Part shown: positions 828 to 33,469 of the stretch, one piece after another
Position numbering within the stretch: position 1 is the stretch's first letter
Layout of the letters: each line of letters begins with the position of its first letter
DNA from: Acidiphilium sp. 37-60-79
GTDB lineage: Bacteria > Pseudomonadota > Alphaproteobacteria > Acetobacterales > Acetobacteraceae
Direction: 5' to 3'
DNA length: 33,469 nt
Assembly (NCBI GenBank): GCA_002279355.1
Contig: NCBV01000025.1
Span: 1-33,469, forward strand
The notes under the pieces: model-generated
The model's input: the letters and a program-made list of their open reading frames with translations, nothing else
What the model was told of the DNA's origin: nothing
Databases searched by the model: none
Made by a program: the position numbers and the translations under genes

Positions 828-1964
828 TTATTCGGCGGCGTGTTGGGCGGTGGCTTTGGCGGCTTGTTGCTCGGCTTGGAGTTTGGTGGCGCGGGCTTCG
901 ACGAGGGCGACGACGTGATCGATCATGGTTTCGCCTTCGATGGTGTGGTCGGTTTTGCCGGCGGCGTAGACCATGTGGCGGCCGTTGCCGCCGCCGGTGA
1001 TGCCGAGGTCGGTCATCAGGGCTTCGCCGGGGCCGTTGACGACGCAGCCGATGATCGAGAGGGTGATCGGGGTTTCGATGTGGGCGAGGCGGTCTTCGAG
1101 TTTGGCGACGGTATCGATGACGTTGAAGCCTTGGCGGGCGCAGGAGGGGCAGGAGATGATGCGCACGCCGCGATGGCGGATGCCGAGGGATTTGAGGATA
1201 TCCCAGCCGACGAGGACTTCTTCTTCGGGTTCGGCGGAGAGGGAGACGCGCATGGTATCGCCGATGCCGGCCCAGAGGAGCGAGCCGAGGCCGATGGACG
1301 ATTTGACGGTGCCGGTGCGTCGGCCGCCGGCTTCGGTGATGCCGATATGGAGCGGGTGATCGCAGACTTCGGCGAGTTGTTGGTAGGCGGCGACGGCCAT
1401 GAACACGTCTGAGGCTTTGACGCTGATTTTGAATTCGTGGAAATCGTGATCTTGTAGGATTTTGGCGTGTTCGAGGGCGGATTCGACCAGGGCGTCTGGG
1501 TTGGGTTCGCCGTATTTTTCGAGCAGATGGCGTTCGAGGGAGCCGGCGTTGACGCCGATGCGAATGGAGCAGCCGTGATCGCGGGCGGCGGTGACGACTT
1601 CGCGGACGCGTTCGGCGCTGCCGATATTGCCGGGGTTGATGCGCAGGCAGGCGGCGCCGGCGCGGGCGGCTTCGATGGCGCGTTTGTAGTGGAAATGGAT
1701 GTCCGCGACGATGGGGACGTTGACTTGTTTGACGATGCTGGCGAGGGCGGCGGTGGCGGCTTCATCGGGGCAGGAGACGCGCACGATATCGACCCCGGCG
1801 CGTTCGGCGCGGTGGATTTGGGCGATCGTGGCGGCGATGTCGTCGGTGAGGGTGTTGGTCATGGTTTGGACCGTGATCGGGGCGTCGCCGCCGACTTTGA
1901 CCGAGCCGACGTTGATTTGGCGTGATTTGCGGCGGGTGATTTGCTGATATTCGCGGTAATTCAT
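828..1964 (-). CDS. ispG: 4-hydroxy-3-methylbut-2-enyl diphosphate synthase (flavodoxin)
   Basis: IspG carries out the penultimate step of the non-mevalonate isoprenoid pathway, reductively converting MEcPP to HMBPP with a 4Fe-4S cluster in the cytosol. The 378-residue length is normal for the short bacterial form. The N-terminal TIM-barrel is recognisable from VQTMTNT, RVSCP and RINPGNIG. The cluster ligands are present: CPSC near residues 271-274 and Cys in [11 protein letters not shown] near 306. The start codon overlaps the stop of the upstream rodZ-like gene (ATGA), so the two are translationally coupled. It is the last gene of the five-gene minus-strand operon, and the 773-794 hairpin lies just beyond it. 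Confidence 0.97.
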
Positions 1965-3025
1965 TTTGGCACCGAATTGTTGGGGGGCGGGCTGGTGGGG
2001 GAGGCGGGTGGGGTGGTGGATGCGGCAGAGTTGGGGGCGGGCGGGGTGAGTTCAACATGGCGCAGCACGACACCTGCGGTGCCGAGCGGGGCGGAGGGTT
2101 GACCGTTATGCAGCAGCACGGTGCCGCCGGCGTTGCCGGTGCTGAGGGTGAGGCCGGGTTCGTTCGGGACGGGCCAGAATTCGTTGGCTTTGAGGATGCG
2201 GGTGAAGAGGATGTTGCCGGTGGCGTCGCGGATTTCGATCCAGGCGGGGGCGGTGGCGGCGACGGCGAGTTTACCGGGTGCGGTGGTTGGGGCGGGTGTG
2301 GGGGTGGTTGGGGCGGGTGTGGGGGTGGCGCCGATCGCGTGGAAGGGTGACGGCGGTGCTGGTTGTGTCGTGCTGGGTGGCGTCGCTGTGGTTTGCGCCG
2401 TGGTATTTTGCACCGTGGTATTTTGCACCGTGGTTGGTGCGGGCGTGGGTGCGGGCGTGGGTGCGGGTGTGGGCGTGGGTGTGGGTGTGGGTGTGGGTGT
2501 GGGTGTGGGTGTGGGTGTGGGTGTGGAAATTTTCGGGATGGCTAGGGGGGCCAGTTTGGCGGGCACTGGCGGCACGTCTTGTGCCAGATGGCGTTGATGT
2601 TCGGTATGGCGATACCAGAGAAAATAGGCGCCGATGGCGATGAGCAGCACCAGGAGCGCTAACGCGCCGGGTGGGACGGCGCGATCCGGCACCGGGCGGG
2701 GGAAGGCGAGTTTGGGTTGTTTGGGTGGGGCCGTGCCGGCGGCGCGGAAGCGGCGGAGAATTTCGTCGGGGTCTAGCCCGATCATGTCGGCATAGGCGCG
2801 GATGAAGCCGGTCGCGTAGGCCGGGGCTGGCAGGGCGGCGAGGTTGCCCGCTTCGATGGCTTCGAGTTGGGCGGCGCGGATTTTCAGCCGGACCGAGAGT
2901 TCGGTGATGGACCAGCCGAGCTGTTCGCGCACGGCGCGCAGTTCCGCGCCAACTTGCGCGGGGCCGGGTGCGCGATGGGTCTCAGTGTCAGGATCGCTGG
3001 ATTTTCTGTCGGATCGGTCTGCCAA
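1961..3025 (-). CDS. RodZ-like cytoskeleton/HTH membrane protein
   Basis: This is a 354-residue protein of the RodZ type. A cytoplasmic helix-turn-helix (HTH_25) at about residues 25-95 ([33 protein letters not shown]) is followed by one membrane helix near 115-135 ([19 protein letters not shown]). A long extracytoplasmic linker then leads to a C-terminal DUF4115 beta-domain at about 250-330 ([13 protein letters not shown]...). RodZ anchors MreB to the membrane for rod shape; this role is by family only. The linker has a run of Thr-Pro dipeptides (about 166-196) encoded by a hexanucleotide repeat. The assigned start is TTG; no ATG in frame lies close by. The gene follows ptsP by 63 bp and overlaps ispG. 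Confidence 0.88.
2436..2526. repeat. GTGGGT hexanucleotide repeat inside rodZ-like gene
   Basis: Roughly fifteen tandem GTGGGT / GCGGGT units (+ strand) encode the Thr-Pro / Ala-Pro linker of the RodZ-like protein. The central part is a pure GTGGGT run and the left end is interrupted by C substitutions. A nearby 15-bp tandem duplication at about 2396-2430 encodes the VQNTT repeats. Gain or loss of a unit adds or removes two residues without a frameshift. Confidence 0.9.
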
Positions 3026-9309: not shown

Positions 9310-12300
9310 TCAGGCGGCTTGCGGCTGGGTGGCGAGGCGTTGGAGATTTAACACCACGTCGCGCGCGGCGGCGAGTCGCGCTTGCACATTCATATCCCGG
9401 ATCATCACCAGCTTATGGTCCGGGCGCAGGCGCAATAGGCCGTTTTTGGTGGCGATATAGGCCAGCAAACCGGCGGGATTGGCGAAATAATTGCGGCGAA
9501 AGCCGATGACCATGCCTTTCGGGCCGGCTTCGAGTTTTTCCACCCCAGCATCACGGCAGGCGCGTTTGAGGGCAACGGTGGCGAGCAGGTTTTCCACCTC
9601 GCTGGGCATCGGGCCGAAGCGATCGACCAATTCGGCGGCGAGGGCTTCGCTGTCAGCATCCGTGGTGAGCGCGCCGATGCGCCGATACAGGCCGAGGCGC
9701 ACGGGCAGTTCGGTGACGTAGCTTTCCGGGATCAGCACCGGCAGGCCGAGCGAGATGTTGGGCGTCCAATCGCGGCTATGCTCGCGGGATTTTTGGCCGC
9801 CCTCGGCGCGCAAATCCGCCACCGCATCTTCCAGCATTTGTTGATAGAGCTCGATGCCGACTTCGCGGATATGGCCGGATTGCTCATCGCCGAGCAGATT
9901 GCCAGCGCCGCGCAAATCCAGATCATGCGAGGCGAGGGTGAAGCCCGCACCCAGCGTATCGAGTGTTTGCATCACTTCGAGGCGCTTTTGCGCGGAGGCG
10001 GCGAGCTTATGGGTGGCGGGCCAAGTGAGATAGGCGTAGCCGCGCTGTTTGCCGCGCCCGACCCGGCCGCGCAATTGATAAAGCCCGGCCAGGCCGAATA
10101 GATCGGCGCGCCAGATCAGGATGGTGTTGACCGCTGGCATGTCGAGCCCGGATTCGACGATGTTGGTGGCAAGCAAAATATCGTATTTGCCTTCGCTGAA
10201 TTCGGTCATCACCCGCTCGATTTCCGAGGGCGGCAGGCGGCCATGGGCGGTGGCGCAGCGTGCTTCGGGGGCAATTTCGGCGAGGCGCTCACGCATCCGA
10301 TCGAGATCCTCGATATGCGGCACCACGCAGAAAATTTGTCCGGAGCGAAACCGCTCGCGCGCCAGGGCTTCGCGGATCACCAGCGGGTCCCACGGCATGA
10401 TGAAGGTGCGCACGGCGAGGCGATCGACCGGCGGGGTGGTGATGAGTGAAAGATCGCGCACGCCGGTGAGGGCCAATTGCAGGGTGCGCGGAATCGGCGT
10501 GGCGGTCAGGGTCAGCACATGGACATCGGCTTTGAGCTGCTTGAGCCGTTCTTTGTGGGCGACGCCGAAATGCTGTTCCTCATCGACGATCAGCAGGCCG
10601 AGCTGGGCAAAATTGATCGATTTGGCGAGCAAAGCATGGGTGCCGATGACGATATTGATCCGGCCATCGGTGAGGCCGGTGCGCACGGCCGTGGCGTCTT
10701 TGGCGGAAACCAGGCGCGAGAGTTGCGCCACATGGATGGGCAAGCCGGCGAAGCGTTCGGCGAATAGGCGGTAATGCTGGCGGGCGAGCAAGGTGGTGGG
10801 CACCACGACGGCGACTTGGGTGCCGGCCATGGCGGCGACGAAGGCGGCGCGGAGTGCGACTTCGGTTTTGCCGAAGCCGACATCGCCGCAAATCAGCCGG
10901 TCCATCGGTTTGCCGGCGGCGAGGTCTTCCAGGACATCGGCGATGGCGCGGGATTGATCCTCGGTTTCGGTATAGGGGAAGCGGGCGCAGAACTCGGCGA
11001 AACTGCCATCCTCGGCGGCGAGCAGCGGGGCATCGTGCAGCTTGCGCTCGGCGGCGAGGCGGATCAGCCCGGCGGCAATGTCACGGATGCGGTTTTTGGC
11101 GCGGGCATGGCGGGCCTGCCAGGACGCGCCGCCGAGCTTGTCGAGCGAGACGCCTGCGGTTTCGGTGCCAAAGCGGGACAGCAGCTCGATATTTTCGACG
11201 GGCAGAAACAATTTATCGCCGCCATCATAGAGCAGCCGCAAGCAATCATGCGGGGCGCCATCGACGGTGAGGGTGACCAGCCCGTCATAGCGGCCGATGC
11301 CGTGTTCTTGGTGGACCACCAGATCGCCTTCGGCGGTTTCGGTGGCATCGGCGATGAATTGGTCGGCGCGCGGGCGGCGCGGCTTTGGCCTTGCGATGCG
11401 CGCACCGAGGAGATCCTGTTCGGCGATCACCGCCATATCATTGGCGACGAAGCCGCGCTCAAGCCCCAGCACCGCGAGCAGCACGGCGGTGCCTTGGGCG
11501 ATGCGCACCTCATCGGCATTGTCGATCGGGATCGAGCTGAGCCCGTGATCGCGCAGAAGTGCCGCGAGCCGGTCACGCGAGCCTTGGCTCCAGGCGGCGA
11601 GCACGACGCGGCGCCCGGCATCCTGCCAGCGGCGCACCAGTAGGCGAAATTCGTCAAAGACCGAATTGCTGGCGCCGGTTTGGGTGAGCACCGCGCCGGG
11701 GCGTGCGCCGGCATCGATCCGGTCGCTGCGTTCGGTGTCGGGGGCAGCGAAGGGGTCGAACATGAAACTGGGGTGCTGCGCCAAAATCGCGTCGAACTCG
11801 GCTGGGCTGAGATAAAGCTGCTCGGGGGCGATCGGGCGGTAGGGCACATCGCCGGGGCGGGTGGGGGTGCGCCGTGCGTCATAATGGTCGGCGATCATCT
11901 CGAACCGCGCGGCGGTGGAGGCTGGGGCTTGATGATCGAGGCTGATGGAGGCGTCGGGCAGGGCCTCGAACAGGGTGCTCATTTGCGTGGTGAAGAGTGG
12001 CGCGTAATGTTCCATGCCGGGATGGCGATGCCCGGCGGAGATGGCTTGATAGAGGGAATCATTGATCGCGTCCGCGCCGAATAGGTCGCGATAGGCGCTG
12101 CGAAACCGGCTGATCGAGTCGGGATCGCGCGGGATTTCTGAGGCGGGGTGAAATTCGAGGCGGGTGAGCGGCTCGGCGCTGCGTTGGGTGACCGGATCGA
12201 AGCTGCGCAGCGTATCGACCTGGTCGCCGAATAGGTCGATGCGCGCCGGCGTGGCGTCGCCTGCGGGCCAGACATCGAAAATGCCGCCGCGAATCGCGAA

Positions 12301-28376: not shown

Positions 28377-28453
28377 GGACCTGTAGCTCAGCTGGATAGA
28401 GCGTTGCCCTCCGAAGGCAAAGGTCGCACGTTCGAATCGTGTCAGGTCCGCCA
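28377..28453 (+). tRNA. tRNA-Arg (anticodon CCG)
   Basis: A complete 77-nt cloverleaf: acceptor GGACCTG/CAGGTCC, D-arm GCTC...GAGC, anticodon stem TTGCC/GGCAA with loop CTCCGAA (anticodon CCG at 28411-28413), T-arm with TTCGAAT, and an encoded CCA end. It decodes CGG. Its 3' end is the junction with the mobile-element-like region, and tRNA 3' ends are the commonest attachment sites for tyrosine recombinases. Confidence 0.97.
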
Positions 28454-30591: not shown

Positions 30592-30872
30592 GCGGCCCTC
30601 CGATCACCTAACAATTCCGCGCCCTCGGTTATGATAGCCTGGCGTTCATCGGCAACATATTGCCAGTCCGGCGCACAACCGGCGCAGAGCCACCCGCCCG
30701 GATTTTCGATGGCGACAATCTCTCTCGCTGATCCGCACGCTGCGCATAAAATCAGGATACGCGGATGCACCAATTCGCGGAGAATATCCGCCTCATCGGC
30801 ACGGATTGCGGACCTAATTTCCGGTTGTAATTGGTCCGGGTTCTCAGCCCAGACGCGGGCGCGGAGTGTCAC
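30588..30872 (-). CDS. TubC_N-like / zinc-ribbon small element protein
   Basis: A 94-residue protein in two parts. Residues about 5-35 (RARVWAENPDQLQPEIRSAIRADEADILREL) resemble the TubC N-terminal docking domain. Residues about 42-70 form a C-x2-C...C-x2-C zinc ribbon (CAAC and CAGC). TubC_N-like segments recur in short proteins of mobile elements and DNA primases, where their role is unclear. The GTG start lies 29 bp inside the ATPase gene's 3' end, suggesting coupled expression. It may work with the adjacent ATPase and primase-like proteins; this is inferred from position. Confidence 0.6.
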   Translation of the reverse strand: MTLRARVWAENPDQLQPEIRSAIRADEADILRELVHPRILILCAACGSAREIVAIENPGGWLCAGCAPDWQYVADERQAIITEGAELLGDRRAA

Positions 30873-32487
30873 TACCCGCTACTTTGCTGTATTTTTCAGC
30901 CATGGTTGCCGATTTTCCATCCGCTACCGATCCGCTACCGTCCGATTTTGCATCCGCTACGCTACCGCCCGTAGCGCCGCTACTTTCACTCGGTAGCGGA
31001 TCGGTAGCGTTCCCATTTTTGGAAAGTTCCCCTGTAAAATGGCCAATAGTAGCGGGTAGCGGATTGGCAGGGGGGGATGGAGGATCGGAGGGTAGGTATC
31101 TGGTCCAGGCATCGGCGAAGTGATCGCGCTGATATCCCTTCCGCACCTGTGCAGTTCCGGCGATTTTCATATTCTCGGACCTGATGCGGAAAGGGGCCAA
31201 TGCCCGCGAAAGTTGCGTTGGTGTGATCGGTTTGCTTTGTCGCCATTCCGGCCATGGGCGATCCTCCATAGCTCCCAATTTTTCGGCCAATTCGGCGGTG
31301 GTCATCCGCATAGAGCTTGTATCCGTGAAAACTTGGCGGATGTCGGCAAGCAGCATCGCGCCGGTGCCAGCAGCCTCATCATCGTTAGAGCGATCACCAA
31401 ATAATGTTTGCAGCGCCCTGCGTCCGCGCCCAGCCCAGACAGGCCCGGCGGCATCGGCAATCGAGAGGATCGGAACGGAAATATCGCCTTCGCGGTCGTT
31501 CAATGCCGACGGGATTGCCGGGTTTTCATCGAGTTTATTCACGGCATCGCGCCCCCATCGAGCCAGCTTCCGGCCAATGATCGCGATTGCCGCCCGCGCC
31601 CCTCCATCGCGCATTTTGTCAACGGTTTGATCGACTGTTTTGCGCTCCAGGCGGATAGGGATTGCCCGATCCTCTAGCGTGCCGGGTAGGCATTTGATCG
31701 CGGCCAGGGCGACGGGCGCGAAGGTGGCGAATTGCACCGGCTGATGCTCGCCCTGTATTTCGACCACGCGGATCACGTTACCGCTCGCCTCAAACCCAGA
31801 ATTAAGCACGCCCCGCAGTTCTTCTGCGTTCTCGCGCAGATGCGTGTCAGCCTCATCGATTAAGAGGGTGAGCGGTGACAGAGCTTCAATCGTGCGAAAC
31901 ACTGATGACGCGGAGATGTTGTCAGCCTTGATCGGTGACAGGCATGTCGCGCGCAATATATCGAGAAGCGTTGACTTACCGCACCGTTTCTCAGGCGACG
32001 TGATCGCCAATCGCGGAGAGTATTGGAAACGCGAATATACCCATGTATGCGCGATCCACAGAGCGGTTGCATCACGGGCGGCAGTGGCGAGGATCACATG
32101 CCGGTCAATGGCGGCGGCGAGTTCATCGAGCACGTCGGCTAAGTTCACAGGATCGGCCCATGGTTCATGGGTTTTGAACGACAATCGCCGCCCGTGCGTT
32201 GGTTCTGCGCCCTCGCCGCGCGCCTTGCGGACTTCATCATCCAGGGTGGTCACGCGGATGCCTAATGCATCGGCTTCGGCGGTGCGGCTCTGGTCGTATT
32301 CGATGGCGGTTAGTTTCGCCAAGCGTTCGATGGCTTTTTGCGCGGTCTCGGCTGGGATTGCATGGTCGCTGATGCTGAGTTCCGGCGTGTCTGTTGCCGA
32401 CGCAATCGGCGCGGGATCGGTCATCACGGTTTCGCCCATCATGGCCTTAGCGGCCCGCAGATCGGCGCGGCGGGGTTGCTTGTTCAT
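30844..32487 (-). CDS. DUF3631-domain AAA+ ATPase/helicase of mobile element
   Basis: A 547-residue protein of the DUF3631 type found in prophages, islands and plasmids beside primase/Toprim proteins. Walker A is SPEKRCGKSTLLD near 165 and Walker B LTLLIDEADTHL near 209, followed by the family's FATFAPVALAAIKCLPGTLEDRAIPIRLERK segment. The DUF3631 C-terminal module continues through LGDRPWPEWRQSKPIT-like phrases (EDRPWPEWRQSKPITPTQLSRAL). The last ~75 residues are a low-complexity Ser/Gly/Asp tail whose DNA carries a cluster of GTAGCG motifs. It overlaps the Toprim gene by ATGA. It probably unwinds or remodels DNA for element replication; helicase activity is inferred. Confidence 0.88.
   Translation of the reverse strand: MNKQPRRADLRAAKAMMGETVMTDPAPIASATDTPELSISDHAIPAETAQKAIERLAKLTAIEYDQSRTAEADALGIRVTTLDDEVRKARGEGAEPTHGRRLSFKTHEPWADPVNLADVLDELAAAIDRHVILATAARDATALWIAHTWVYSRFQYSPRLAITSPEKRCGKSTLLDILRATCLSPIKADNISASSVFRTIEALSPLTLLIDEADTHLRENAEELRGVLNSGFEASGNVIRVVEIQGEHQPVQFATFAPVALAAIKCLPGTLEDRAIPIRLERKTVDQTVDKMRDGGARAAIAIIGRKLARWGRDAVNKLDENPAIPSALNDREGDISVPILSIADAAGPVWAGRGRRALQTLFGDRSNDDEAAGTGAMLLADIRQVFTDTSSMRMTTAELAEKLGAMEDRPWPEWRQSKPITPTQLSRALAPFRIRSENMKIAGTAQVRKGYQRDHFADAWTRYLPSDPPSPPANPLPATIGHFTGELSKNGNATDPLPSESSGATGGSVADAKSDGSGSVADGKSATMAEKYSKVAGSDTPRPRLG
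30877..31061. repeat. CGCTAC/GTAGCG cluster, candidate replication origin
   Basis: Eleven copies of CGCTAC (30877, 30922, 30933, 30955, 30960, 30978) or its complement GTAGCG (30971, 30993, 31004, 31049, 31056) in 185 bp. Segments 30921-30940 and 30991-31010 are inverted copies matching at 19 of 20 positions. Copies at 30922/30933 and 30993/31004 are 11 bp apart. It lies in the 3' end of the ATPase gene. Confidence 0.75.
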
Positions 32488-33350
32488 TGCTTCACCCCCT
32501 CACGCTGCATCAGAACGTCCGCAAAATCCGCACCGGGCAGATTGGGCTTGACGATCCGCGCGGCGCGGCCCTCGCCCTGCCAGCGCCTAGCAGCGGCTTC
32601 GGCGGCTTCGATGCCGGGCGCGTCGTTATCGGCGGCGATGATGATACTGCGCACCGATGGTGGTAAATCCAGTTTGCTGCGAATGTTGCCAGCGGCGACG
32701 CCAGCCCATGCCGGTTTGCCGAGGATCAGCCCGGCGCTGGCGGCGGTTTCGATGCCCTCGCCGATCACCAGATCGCCTCCGGGTGGCGAAAGGCGGATCG
32801 CCGCGCCGAATATCGGGCCAAGGCTGGCCTTGGGCGGATCGAGAACGGCTTTTCGACCATCGAACGTGAGATATGTGCGGTGGATGGCGACGGGGCTTCC
32901 AGCGGCATCCTGCGCCAGTGCGATCATGGCTGGGTGGCTTCCCCCCCCGGATGGGTGCGGTGTATCGCGCCGGTAGCGCAGCACGGTTGACGAGGTGAGC
33001 GCCGCCAAGCCGCGCCGGGTCAGGTATTGATGCACCGGATCGCCTGGGCGGATTGTCTCGCTACCGGCCCAGAGTTTCAGCGCGCGTTCGGCGGCCTTGG
33101 CGCGGGCCTCAGCGGGCTTGGCGTCGTCGCGAGGGTCGTTGGTGCGGCTGGGTGGTGTAGCGGCCCCCAGCGCCGCCCGGATGGCGGGTTGATCTCTGCA
33201 TGAGGCGCAAAAGCCCATGACCCTGCCAGCACGAGTTGCTGAAAGAGTGAAGGCATCCTTGTTATACCCGCAAGCCGGGCATGACCCGCGCCATTCACGC
33301 CCCGCGCGGTGAAGGTTAAGCCGGGCGGCGATGGATTCGATGGAGGTCAT
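32484..33350 (-). CDS. Zinc-ribbon/Toprim primase-like protein of mobile element
   Basis: A 288-residue DNA-primase-like protein. The N-terminus has a CHC2-type zinc ribbon (CPACGYNKDAF...GFCASC, about 24-52). A central DUF7146-like region (PVHQYLTRRGL...LRYRRDTPHPSGG) follows. The C-terminal Toprim domain has its Glu in LVIGEGIETA near 195 and the acidic pair in AADNDAPG near 240, ending GADFADVL. Such proteins pair with DUF3631 ATPases as mobile-element primase-helicase sets. A GGAGG site lies 7 bp before the ATG inside the upstream gene, and both junctions are ATGA overlaps. Primer synthesis is inferred; the catalytic subdomain beyond Toprim is not evident. Confidence 0.88.
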   Translation of the reverse strand: MTSIESIAARLNLHRAGREWRGSCPACGYNKDAFTLSATRAGRVMGFCASCRDQPAIRAALGAATPPSRTNDPRDDAKPAEARAKAAERALKLWAGSETIRPGDPVHQYLTRRGLAALTSSTVLRYRRDTPHPSGGGSHPAMIALAQDAAGSPVAIHRTYLTFDGRKAVLDPPKASLGPIFGAAIRLSPPGGDLVIGEGIETAASAGLILGKPAWAGVAAGNIRSKLDLPPSVRSIIIAADNDAPGIEAAEAAARRWQGEGRAARIVKPNLPGADFADVLMQREGVKQ

Positions 33351-33469
33351 TGCTCGCCTCCTTCCGAGTTGTCACTGGCGGGCGGCGTTTCGATTTCGCG
33401 GGCGGCTGCGGCCTCATAGATTTCATCGGGCGGCGTCGGCCAGTTCGGAATATCGTTGCTATTTTCGGG
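33347..33469 (-). CDS. C-terminal end of a truncated element gene
   Basis: Only the last 40 codons are in the window; the gene continues past the right edge. The visible part reads NDIPNWPTPPDEIYEAAAAREIE and ends in a Pro/Ser/Glu-rich tail (PPASDNSEGGEQ). Its stop overlaps the Toprim gene start (ATGA), so it is the next member of the same operon. Not enough is present to assign a family. Confidence 0.7.
   Translation of the reverse strand, partial: PENSNDIPNWPTPPDEIYEAAAAREIETPPASDNSEGGEQ

Follow-up and report, generated by a model that had tools for sequence, protein, structure and literature searches.

The locus and the DUF3631 protein

We analysed a 33,469-nucleotide window of Acidiphilium sp. 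37-60-79 DNA, which is the whole of contig C91. It encodes, on the minus strand, a 547-residue protein that matches PF12307 (DUF3631) at 133.2 bits (cut-off 24), and the gene lies just downstream of a Toprim/DUF7146 primase gene (Table 1). The last 49 bases of a tRNA-Arg gene of the window have one other match in the genome, on contig C33, and that match adjoins a tyrosine integrase (PF00589). By joining the two contigs we infer an integrative element that has one end in C91 and the other in C33, its middle being unassembled; granted this join, the integrase by a tRNA with att repeats is as in a P4-like satellite. P4 alpha joins primase and helicase in one protein (excerpt of PMC4234260). Unlike this fusion, the primase and helicase of the window are two genes, and no alpha-type fusion with GGTGAACA-type repeats was found.

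DUF3631 is the sole Pfam family in the protein at E≤0.001; the search gave no homology to DUF927 or Primase_Cterm/D5_N and no rolling-circle (RCR) endonuclease domain, and the predicted fold is helicase-like. Sequence searches of the PDB with two profiles returned nothing usable (one match at E 0.38 with one profile, none with the other). The full-chain model (mean pLDDT 78) gave 92 Foldseek matches at E≤0.001, which include the helicase region of NrS-1 (E 1.2e-6), PriRep1 of SaPI5 (E 1.7e-5), MCM, D5-type helicases, the primase-helicases of ASFV and poxviruses, RuvB and AAV Rep40. The fold search thus points to an AAA+ helicase fold, at low TM-scores over the whole chain (0.2-0.3 by query length). 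The modelled protein is similar to AAA+ helicases, SaPI5 PriRep1, NrS-1 and MCM among them. We therefore predict that it is an AAA+ self-loading helicase, which would be a likely function for what Pfam lists as a 'protein of unknown function' family.

The C-terminal part contains a winged helix (residues 364-468) predicted at a mean pLDDT of 91. Searched alone, the winged-helix model had no PDB match at E≤0.001 (top E 0.11, weak generic matches), and the P4 origin-binding domain was absent among its best 50 fold matches. The winged helix is followed by a tail, encoded by the array described below, with a low-complexity look and pLDDT <50 at residues 478-543.

Table 1. Features of the window discussed in the text
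Feature	Position	Strand	Evidence
Proposed replication origin, mirrored iteron array, dyad at 30965.5	30870..31061	.	copy count, codon controls, mirror test
Degenerate outer site CACTAC, one mismatch, mirror of 31056	30870..30875	+	mirror test
Outer site CGCTAC, mirror of 31049	30877..30882	+	copy count, mirror test
A+T-rich gap, 59% A+T (gene 41%), possible unwinding stretch	30883..30921	.	composition
Inner site CGCTAC, mirror of 31004	30922..30927	+	copy count, mirror test
Inner site CGCTAC, mirror of 30993	30933..30938	+	copy count, mirror test
Central site CGCTAC, mirror of 30971	30955..30960	+	copy count, mirror test
Extra CGCTAC without mirror mate	30960..30965	+	copy count, mirror test
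Central site CGCTAC	30971..30976	-	copy count, mirror test
Extra CGCTAC without mirror mate	30978..30983	+	copy count, mirror test
Inner site CGCTAC	30993..30998	-	copy count, mirror test
Inner site CGCTAC	31004..31009	-	copy count, mirror test
A+T-rich gap, 62% A+T, possible unwinding stretch	31010..31048	.	composition
Outer site CGCTAC	31049..31054	-	copy count, mirror test
Outer site CGCTAC	31056..31061	-	copy count, mirror test
DUF3631 protein, predicted AAA+ self-loading helicase and origin binder; tail encoded by proposed origin	30844..32487	-	Pfam, structure model, fold search
C-terminal winged-helix domain, residues 364-468	31084..31398	-	structure model
Codon of N439, strand before wing; best correlate of site base 3	31171..31173	-	covariation, model
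Codon of V448, first of strand after wing; best correlate of site base 4	31144..31146	-	covariation, model
Toprim/DUF7146 primase, 4-bp overlap with helicase gene	32484..33350	-	ORF list, Pfam
Small downstream ORF within DNA common to sister contig C79	30588..30872	-	ORF list, DNA comparison
tRNA-Arg(ccg), proposed integration target	28377..28453	+	tRNA search
49-bp repeat, proposed att site	28405..28453	.	genome match at G000:C33:148761-148809

The CGCTAC array

The initial annotation had noticed eleven copies of a 6-mer in a 185-bp stretch inside this gene, in both orientations, and proposed that they form a candidate origin. An exact count bears out the cluster: CGCTAC occurs 11 times at 30877-31061, six times on the plus and five times on the minus strand. 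A 20-bp inverted repeat with one mismatch, also claimed at the time, is consistent with the perfect 19-nt inverted arms at 30922-30940 and 30991-31009. In the whole window CGCTAC occurs 23 times, versus a mean of 9.53 (s.d. 3.06) in shuffled sequences, none of 100 of which reached 23.

The cluster could be a by-product of a protein-level repeat or of a low-complexity tail, as the look and low pLDDT of the encoded residues may suggest. The copies, however, lie on both strands and occupy all three reading frames. We ran three codon controls on the 62 tail codons, with 20,000 trials per control for CGCTAC and 4,000 for any 6-mer. Permuting synonymous codons within the tail gave a mean of 3.07 copies (maximum 9), drawing codons from the usage of the gene gave 0.69 (maximum 5) and permuting codon order gave 0.37 (maximum 5), so that 11 copies were never reached in any control. 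Nor did any 6-mer reach 11 copies in the 4,000 trials of each.

The array is also symmetric. Four pairs of sites mirror each other exactly about one dyad, a fifth pair does so with one mismatch, and two sites are without a mate (Table 1); four exact mirror pairs arose in 23 of 200,000 random placements and more than four in none. The array reads as a pair of sites (7 bp), 45 bp, a pair (11 bp), 22 bp, a single site, 16 bp, a single site, 22 bp, a pair (11 bp), 45 bp and a pair (7 bp), and its two long gaps are richer in A+T than the gene. An earlier placement of the window's sites in a six-site frame (45/27/45 bp, one mismatch) was superseded by this exact dyad.

The window has another dense cluster, of a GGTGTGG-type 7-mer at 2294-2521, whose copies all lie on one strand at spacings divisible by 3. 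The minus-strand ORF around it (1961-3025) encodes a protein with a PT-repeat linker. This spacing pattern is what a protein repeat would give, in contrast to the CGCTAC array.

Arrays in other DUF3631 genes

We collected DUF3631 genes from relatives of the window protein, from Pfam searches of three overlapping genome sets (397, 385 and 398 genomes, of which 18, 11 and 14, respectively, had a match), from plasmid and phage records, and from viral contigs. Four of five plasmid/phage matches were taken in, a weak Acinetobacter match being left out. The viral contigs gave nothing when searched with the single window protein and 62 loci when searched with an alignment. Rows were reduced by identity of the last 70 domain residues and those short of the C-terminal end of the domain were excluded, which left 104; L157 was then excluded for having too little DNA past the domain, leaving 103 genes. 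These were scanned without a preset motif, any 7-mer being accepted that was arranged as A1-A2-A3 mirrored by A4'-A5'-A6' in a 550-bp stretch around the domain end, with a threshold of at least 36 of 42.

A mirrored array was found at the 3' end of 42 of the 103 genes, versus 2 of 979 control stretches from the same loci, where the two matches (in L150 and L161) are unrelated 7-mers. The window is counted among the 42 under its first, six-site assignment. The spacing is near-fixed, at 8 / ~43 / ~18-20 / ~43 / 8 bp. Between A2 and A3 it is 43 bp in 22 loci, 44 in 14, 45 in three and 42 in three; between A3 and A4, 18 bp in 20, 20 in ten and 16-27 in the others; and between A4 and A5, 43 bp in 29 and 42-45 in the others. 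The spacing ranges were set once 46 of the 103 loci had been viewed, and the limits on mismatches were loosened a little later; the geometry was found in 29 of those 46 and in 13 of the 57 loci fetched afterwards. A second statistic, at least six copies of one CGNNA[CG] word with at least two per strand, was satisfied by 35 of the 103 genes versus 1 of 1160 controls.

One or other array type is present in 57 of the 103 genes. Conservation of position among related DUF3631 loci, proposed as a check by the initial annotation, is borne out in many of them, though not in all: 46 genes show neither array type. Among these 46, degenerate or variant arrays were visible by eye in, for example, L054, L119, L107, L110, L017 and L007, and in others no array was seen by eye; several genes of this group have tails of at least 60 residues, some with degenerate arrays. 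Canonical arrays occur in records of Pseudoroseomonas, Thermohalobaculum, Nitrospinae, Planctomycetota and Acidobacteria and in a Pseudomonas phage. Two circular Streptomyces plasmids carry non-canonical arrays, CCGCTAC in 11 and 13 copies, at the end of the DUF3631 gene.

The sites read CCGNNACA, the variable NN differing between elements. A half-array consensus, built from the 51 of 84 halves whose spacing is 43, has sites of the form A(A/T)CCGNNACA, with a second site in tandem and a run rich in T ahead of the inner site. The A2-A3 and A4-A5 gaps average 51% A+T versus 40% for the loci, each being higher in 38 of the 42, and the array centre and flanks differ from the locus by about 1 point.

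Some loci depart from the common site. L129, L135 and L148, and also L030, have G for C at the sixth base (CGTCAGA, CGGTAGA), and the first three have a shorter wing region. In L108 (all sites) and L115 (four of six sites) the site starts with CT instead of CG, and both proteins have KMGY after the wing where others have KGY.

The arrays lie wholly inside the reading frame in 38 of the 42 loci, straddle the stop codon in two (L076, L124) and lie wholly beyond it in two (L055, L061), so the array is a DNA-level feature. In L055 and L061 the protein ends 9-10 residues past the domain and the array lies just beyond the stop; a protein-level cause cannot therefore explain an array where the tail is nearly absent. 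In addition, the common spacings of 8 and 43 are not multiples of 3. Even though most arrays are translated, we thus reject a protein-level repeat, to which we assign a negligible probability, by the reading frames, the codon shuffles and the arrays beyond the stop. The earlier claim that no protein repeat accounts for the cluster stands.

A second cassette in the same genome

The start of contig C79 is the end of C91 (window position 33469, position 1 of locus L035), with the same bases on opposite strands; it is probably a collapsed repeat common to two related elements. At E≤0.001, the similarity of C79 to the window runs outward from 30872 (82% over 419 columns), reaches down to 33096 at the upstream end (83% over 385 columns) and includes two pieces near 28.6-28.9 kb. 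No match at this threshold was found for 30873-33095, and helicase and array therefore differ together between the two contigs. Shared DNA resumes beside the outermost site of the array. In the corresponding slot C79 encodes another protein with no Pfam family over cut-off (weak AAA_16, E 0.019), and TGCGCCC occurs 11 times, on both strands, at the 3' end of its gene (L035, 2640-2846). A Toprim primase is present there as well, making C79 a second replication cassette of this genome.

Covariation of wing residues and site bases

To relate protein columns to site bases we used normalised mutual information over 414 columns in the 42 loci with a geometry score of at least 36, among which near relatives (for example L122/L124 and L084/L101) are not independent. 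For site base 3, residue 439 ranked first and 448 second (z 8.5 and 5.4); for site base 4, residue 448 ranked first and 439 second (z 7.8 and 5.7). The domain model places residue 439 in the strand that leads into the wing and residue 448 at the start of the strand that follows it. In 319 pairs with ATPase identity below 40%, NN was shared by 25 of 47 pairs in which both residues were the same, versus 28 of the 272 other pairs, and residues 448 and 439 led again among 370 columns scored on pairs less than 40% identical.

Loci with both N439 and V448 had CGCTAC without exception, in the training set (8 of 8) as well as among the held-out loci (4 of 4: L099, L100, L082, L017), two of the latter being the circular Streptomyces plasmids. 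All eight training loci with N439 have both V448 and CGCTAC. Nine held-out loci have N439 without V448, and of these only L131 (P448) had a two-strand CGCTAC array; none appeared among the two best words of L130, L126, L121, L123, L075, L137, L163 and L078. K439 went with CGGAAC in two training loci and in held-out L141. Of 13 training loci with T439 and T448, seven have CGTCAC and six have CA, CG, CC or TA as the variable bases. A natural pair of such loci is L004 (N439/V448, CGCTACA) and L005 (T439/T448, CGTCACA). Exceptions have CGCTAC with D439 (L103, L111, L128), S439 (L124) or Q439 (L115).

On a tree of the ATPase part with 42 tips, NN changed at least 26 times. Phylogenetically independent pairs went in the expected direction, and this test alone was not significant because few pairs were available (4-6 supported pairs per test, median p 0.06-0.25). 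The covariation suggests which two helicase residues read which two DNA letters. The initial annotation had named the DUF3631 and Toprim proteins as possible binders of the cluster. Of the two, the DUF3631 protein is the more likely candidate, because the site bases track residues of its winged helix.

We consider it reasonably probable, with less assurance than for the origin itself, that a protein-DNA code exists in which residues 439 and 448 specify the two variable bases of the CCGNNACA iterons. Replication specificity would then have changed repeatedly through co-evolution of wing and in-gene origin, and related elements could coexist in one cell as separate replicons. In the literature on RepAM/pMEA300, iterons, winged helices and self-loading helicases, we recognised no description of the array or of the code among the matches listed.

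Proposed origin and its alternatives

The computational observations are the array with its geometry, its being a feature of the DNA, the covariation of residues and bases, the likeness of the predicted fold to helicases and the cassette difference between C91 and C79. We hold it highly probable that they reflect a single arrangement, in which the cluster is the element's own origin, in two half-origins, and DUF3631 is a self-loading AAA+ helicase whose winged helix binds the sites. The candidate origin proposed at the outset is supported by the enrichment over codon controls and by the conserved position in many DUF3631 loci. Binding by DUF3631, melting, two hexamers and replication at the array are what we infer from them. 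Each CCGNNAC-type site would be bound by the C-terminal winged helix, whose residues 439 and 448, one on each flank of the wing, would read the two variable bases. Each of the two mirror-image half-origins would comprise an outer tandem pair, an A+T-rich gap of ~43 bp and inner site(s) up to the dyad. The two halves probably load two hexamers facing opposite ways, the A+T-rich gaps probably melt and replication probably starts in both directions, with primers that would come from the neighbouring Toprim primase. Since the array is part of the 3' end of the gene, the helicase would travel together with its origin as one cassette.

Mirrored sites are typical of operators, and this array extends to the point where the downstream ORF starts (30872). 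The cluster might thus be a regulatory operator for transcription or copy number, bound by DUF3631 or another protein of the element, with the origin elsewhere; the P4 record likewise marks crr and a separate ori. We find this improbable. A mirrored array of ~130 bp with A+T-rich gaps, found at the helicase 3' end in 42 of 103 relatives, is larger than usual operators and otherwise placed, and in the C91/C79 comparison the array goes with the helicase and not with the shared downstream DNA.

Centromeres and packaging signals, too, can contain iterated inverted sites. For a partition or packaging site of the element, however, we see hardly any chance: a Pfam scan that covered four ORFs of the region, including two that lie downstream of the array, showed no such family, and the sites track the predicted DNA-binding wing of the helicase itself.

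A less likely form of the array, and in our estimate a very unlikely one, is a stem-loop, in RNA or as a cruciform, of the kind put forward for the pRN1 origin. In its favour are the mirrored layout, the 43% likeness of gap 1 to the reverse complement of gap 2 (28% in shuffles; 42 loci) and the case made in an excerpt of PMC4234260 for a stem-loop located 3' of a replication gene with a winged helix. The conserved gap positions, however, may just reflect one half-origin consensus present in both halves, and the way in which site bases follow residues of the wing favours protein sites. The most likely reading is a replication origin that lies within the end of the gene for its own helicase.

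Relation to known systems

The best reading, by analogy, is that the array would work like the origins of SaPI, SCC Cch2 and P4, yet embedded in the gene. SaPI Rep and SCC Cch2 use their C-terminal domains to recognise iterons that lie just past the genes encoding them, and SaPI Rep appears to bind as two hexamers (excerpt of PMC7581432). As in SaPI Rep and SCCmec Cch2, a helicase with a C-terminal, here predicted, DNA-binding domain is accompanied by iterons at the 3' end of its gene, and as in SaPI/SCCmec elements the same element encodes a primase (same excerpt); PriRep1 of SaPI5 is, in addition, among the fold matches of DUF3631. Unlike SaPI Rep and Cch2, DUF3631 is the sole Pfam family of the protein, which has no sequence match to a PDB chain; the array is mostly inside coding sequence with a dyad-symmetric ~43-bp geometry; and the sites co-vary with two wing residues.

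The initial comparison with P4, as a satellite with iterated origin sites near its replication gene, holds in kind. In the P4 annotation, crr with its iterated 8-bp sites lies 46-345 bp past the alpha stop, the repeat spacing is 9/43/18/14 in one crr copy and 10/11/22/43/10 in ori, and 43 occurs in both. The P4 sites are bound by a winged helix (excerpt of PMC4234260). Unlike here, the P4 site is GGTGAACA instead of CGCTAC, and the site orientations differ.

RepAM initiators of actinobacterial integrative elements (ICEs) share the Pfam domain DUF3631, and part of a RepAM paper relays the prediction that RepAM starts rolling-circle replication of the pC194 type. The helicase-like fold, as modelled, and the iteron array speak for a helicase-loading start instead, which would challenge the published prediction for actinobacterial DUF3631 members. 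An origin inside a gene has precedents. The lambda ori lies inside gene O, and RA3 and lambda have other initiators and another site layout than the DUF3631 array. The proposed origin resembles the lambda ori and the oriV of the IncU plasmid RA3, located in the 3' end of repB (excerpt of PMC9455977), in being embedded in an initiator gene.

The array offers a computable origin signature for integrative elements, phages and plasmids with a DUF3631 helicase. The candidate specificity code, which is unusually testable, would give mobile elements a compact way to change origin specificity and is a likely basis of replicon compatibility in one cell.

A CGCTACC array at 6059-6211 of L049 (G004:C23), in a genome with no DUF3631 match found, may be an origin that has decayed or been orphaned. 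Other helicase families, too, have two-strand arrays at the 3' end of the gene or shortly after it, e.g. the C79 protein and a DUF5906 helicase. In the latter case (L037, G002:C20), CCTAGAC occurs seven times at 11658-11891, six times on one strand and once on the other, just past the stop of a DUF5906/VapE-like protein encoded at 9877-11643.
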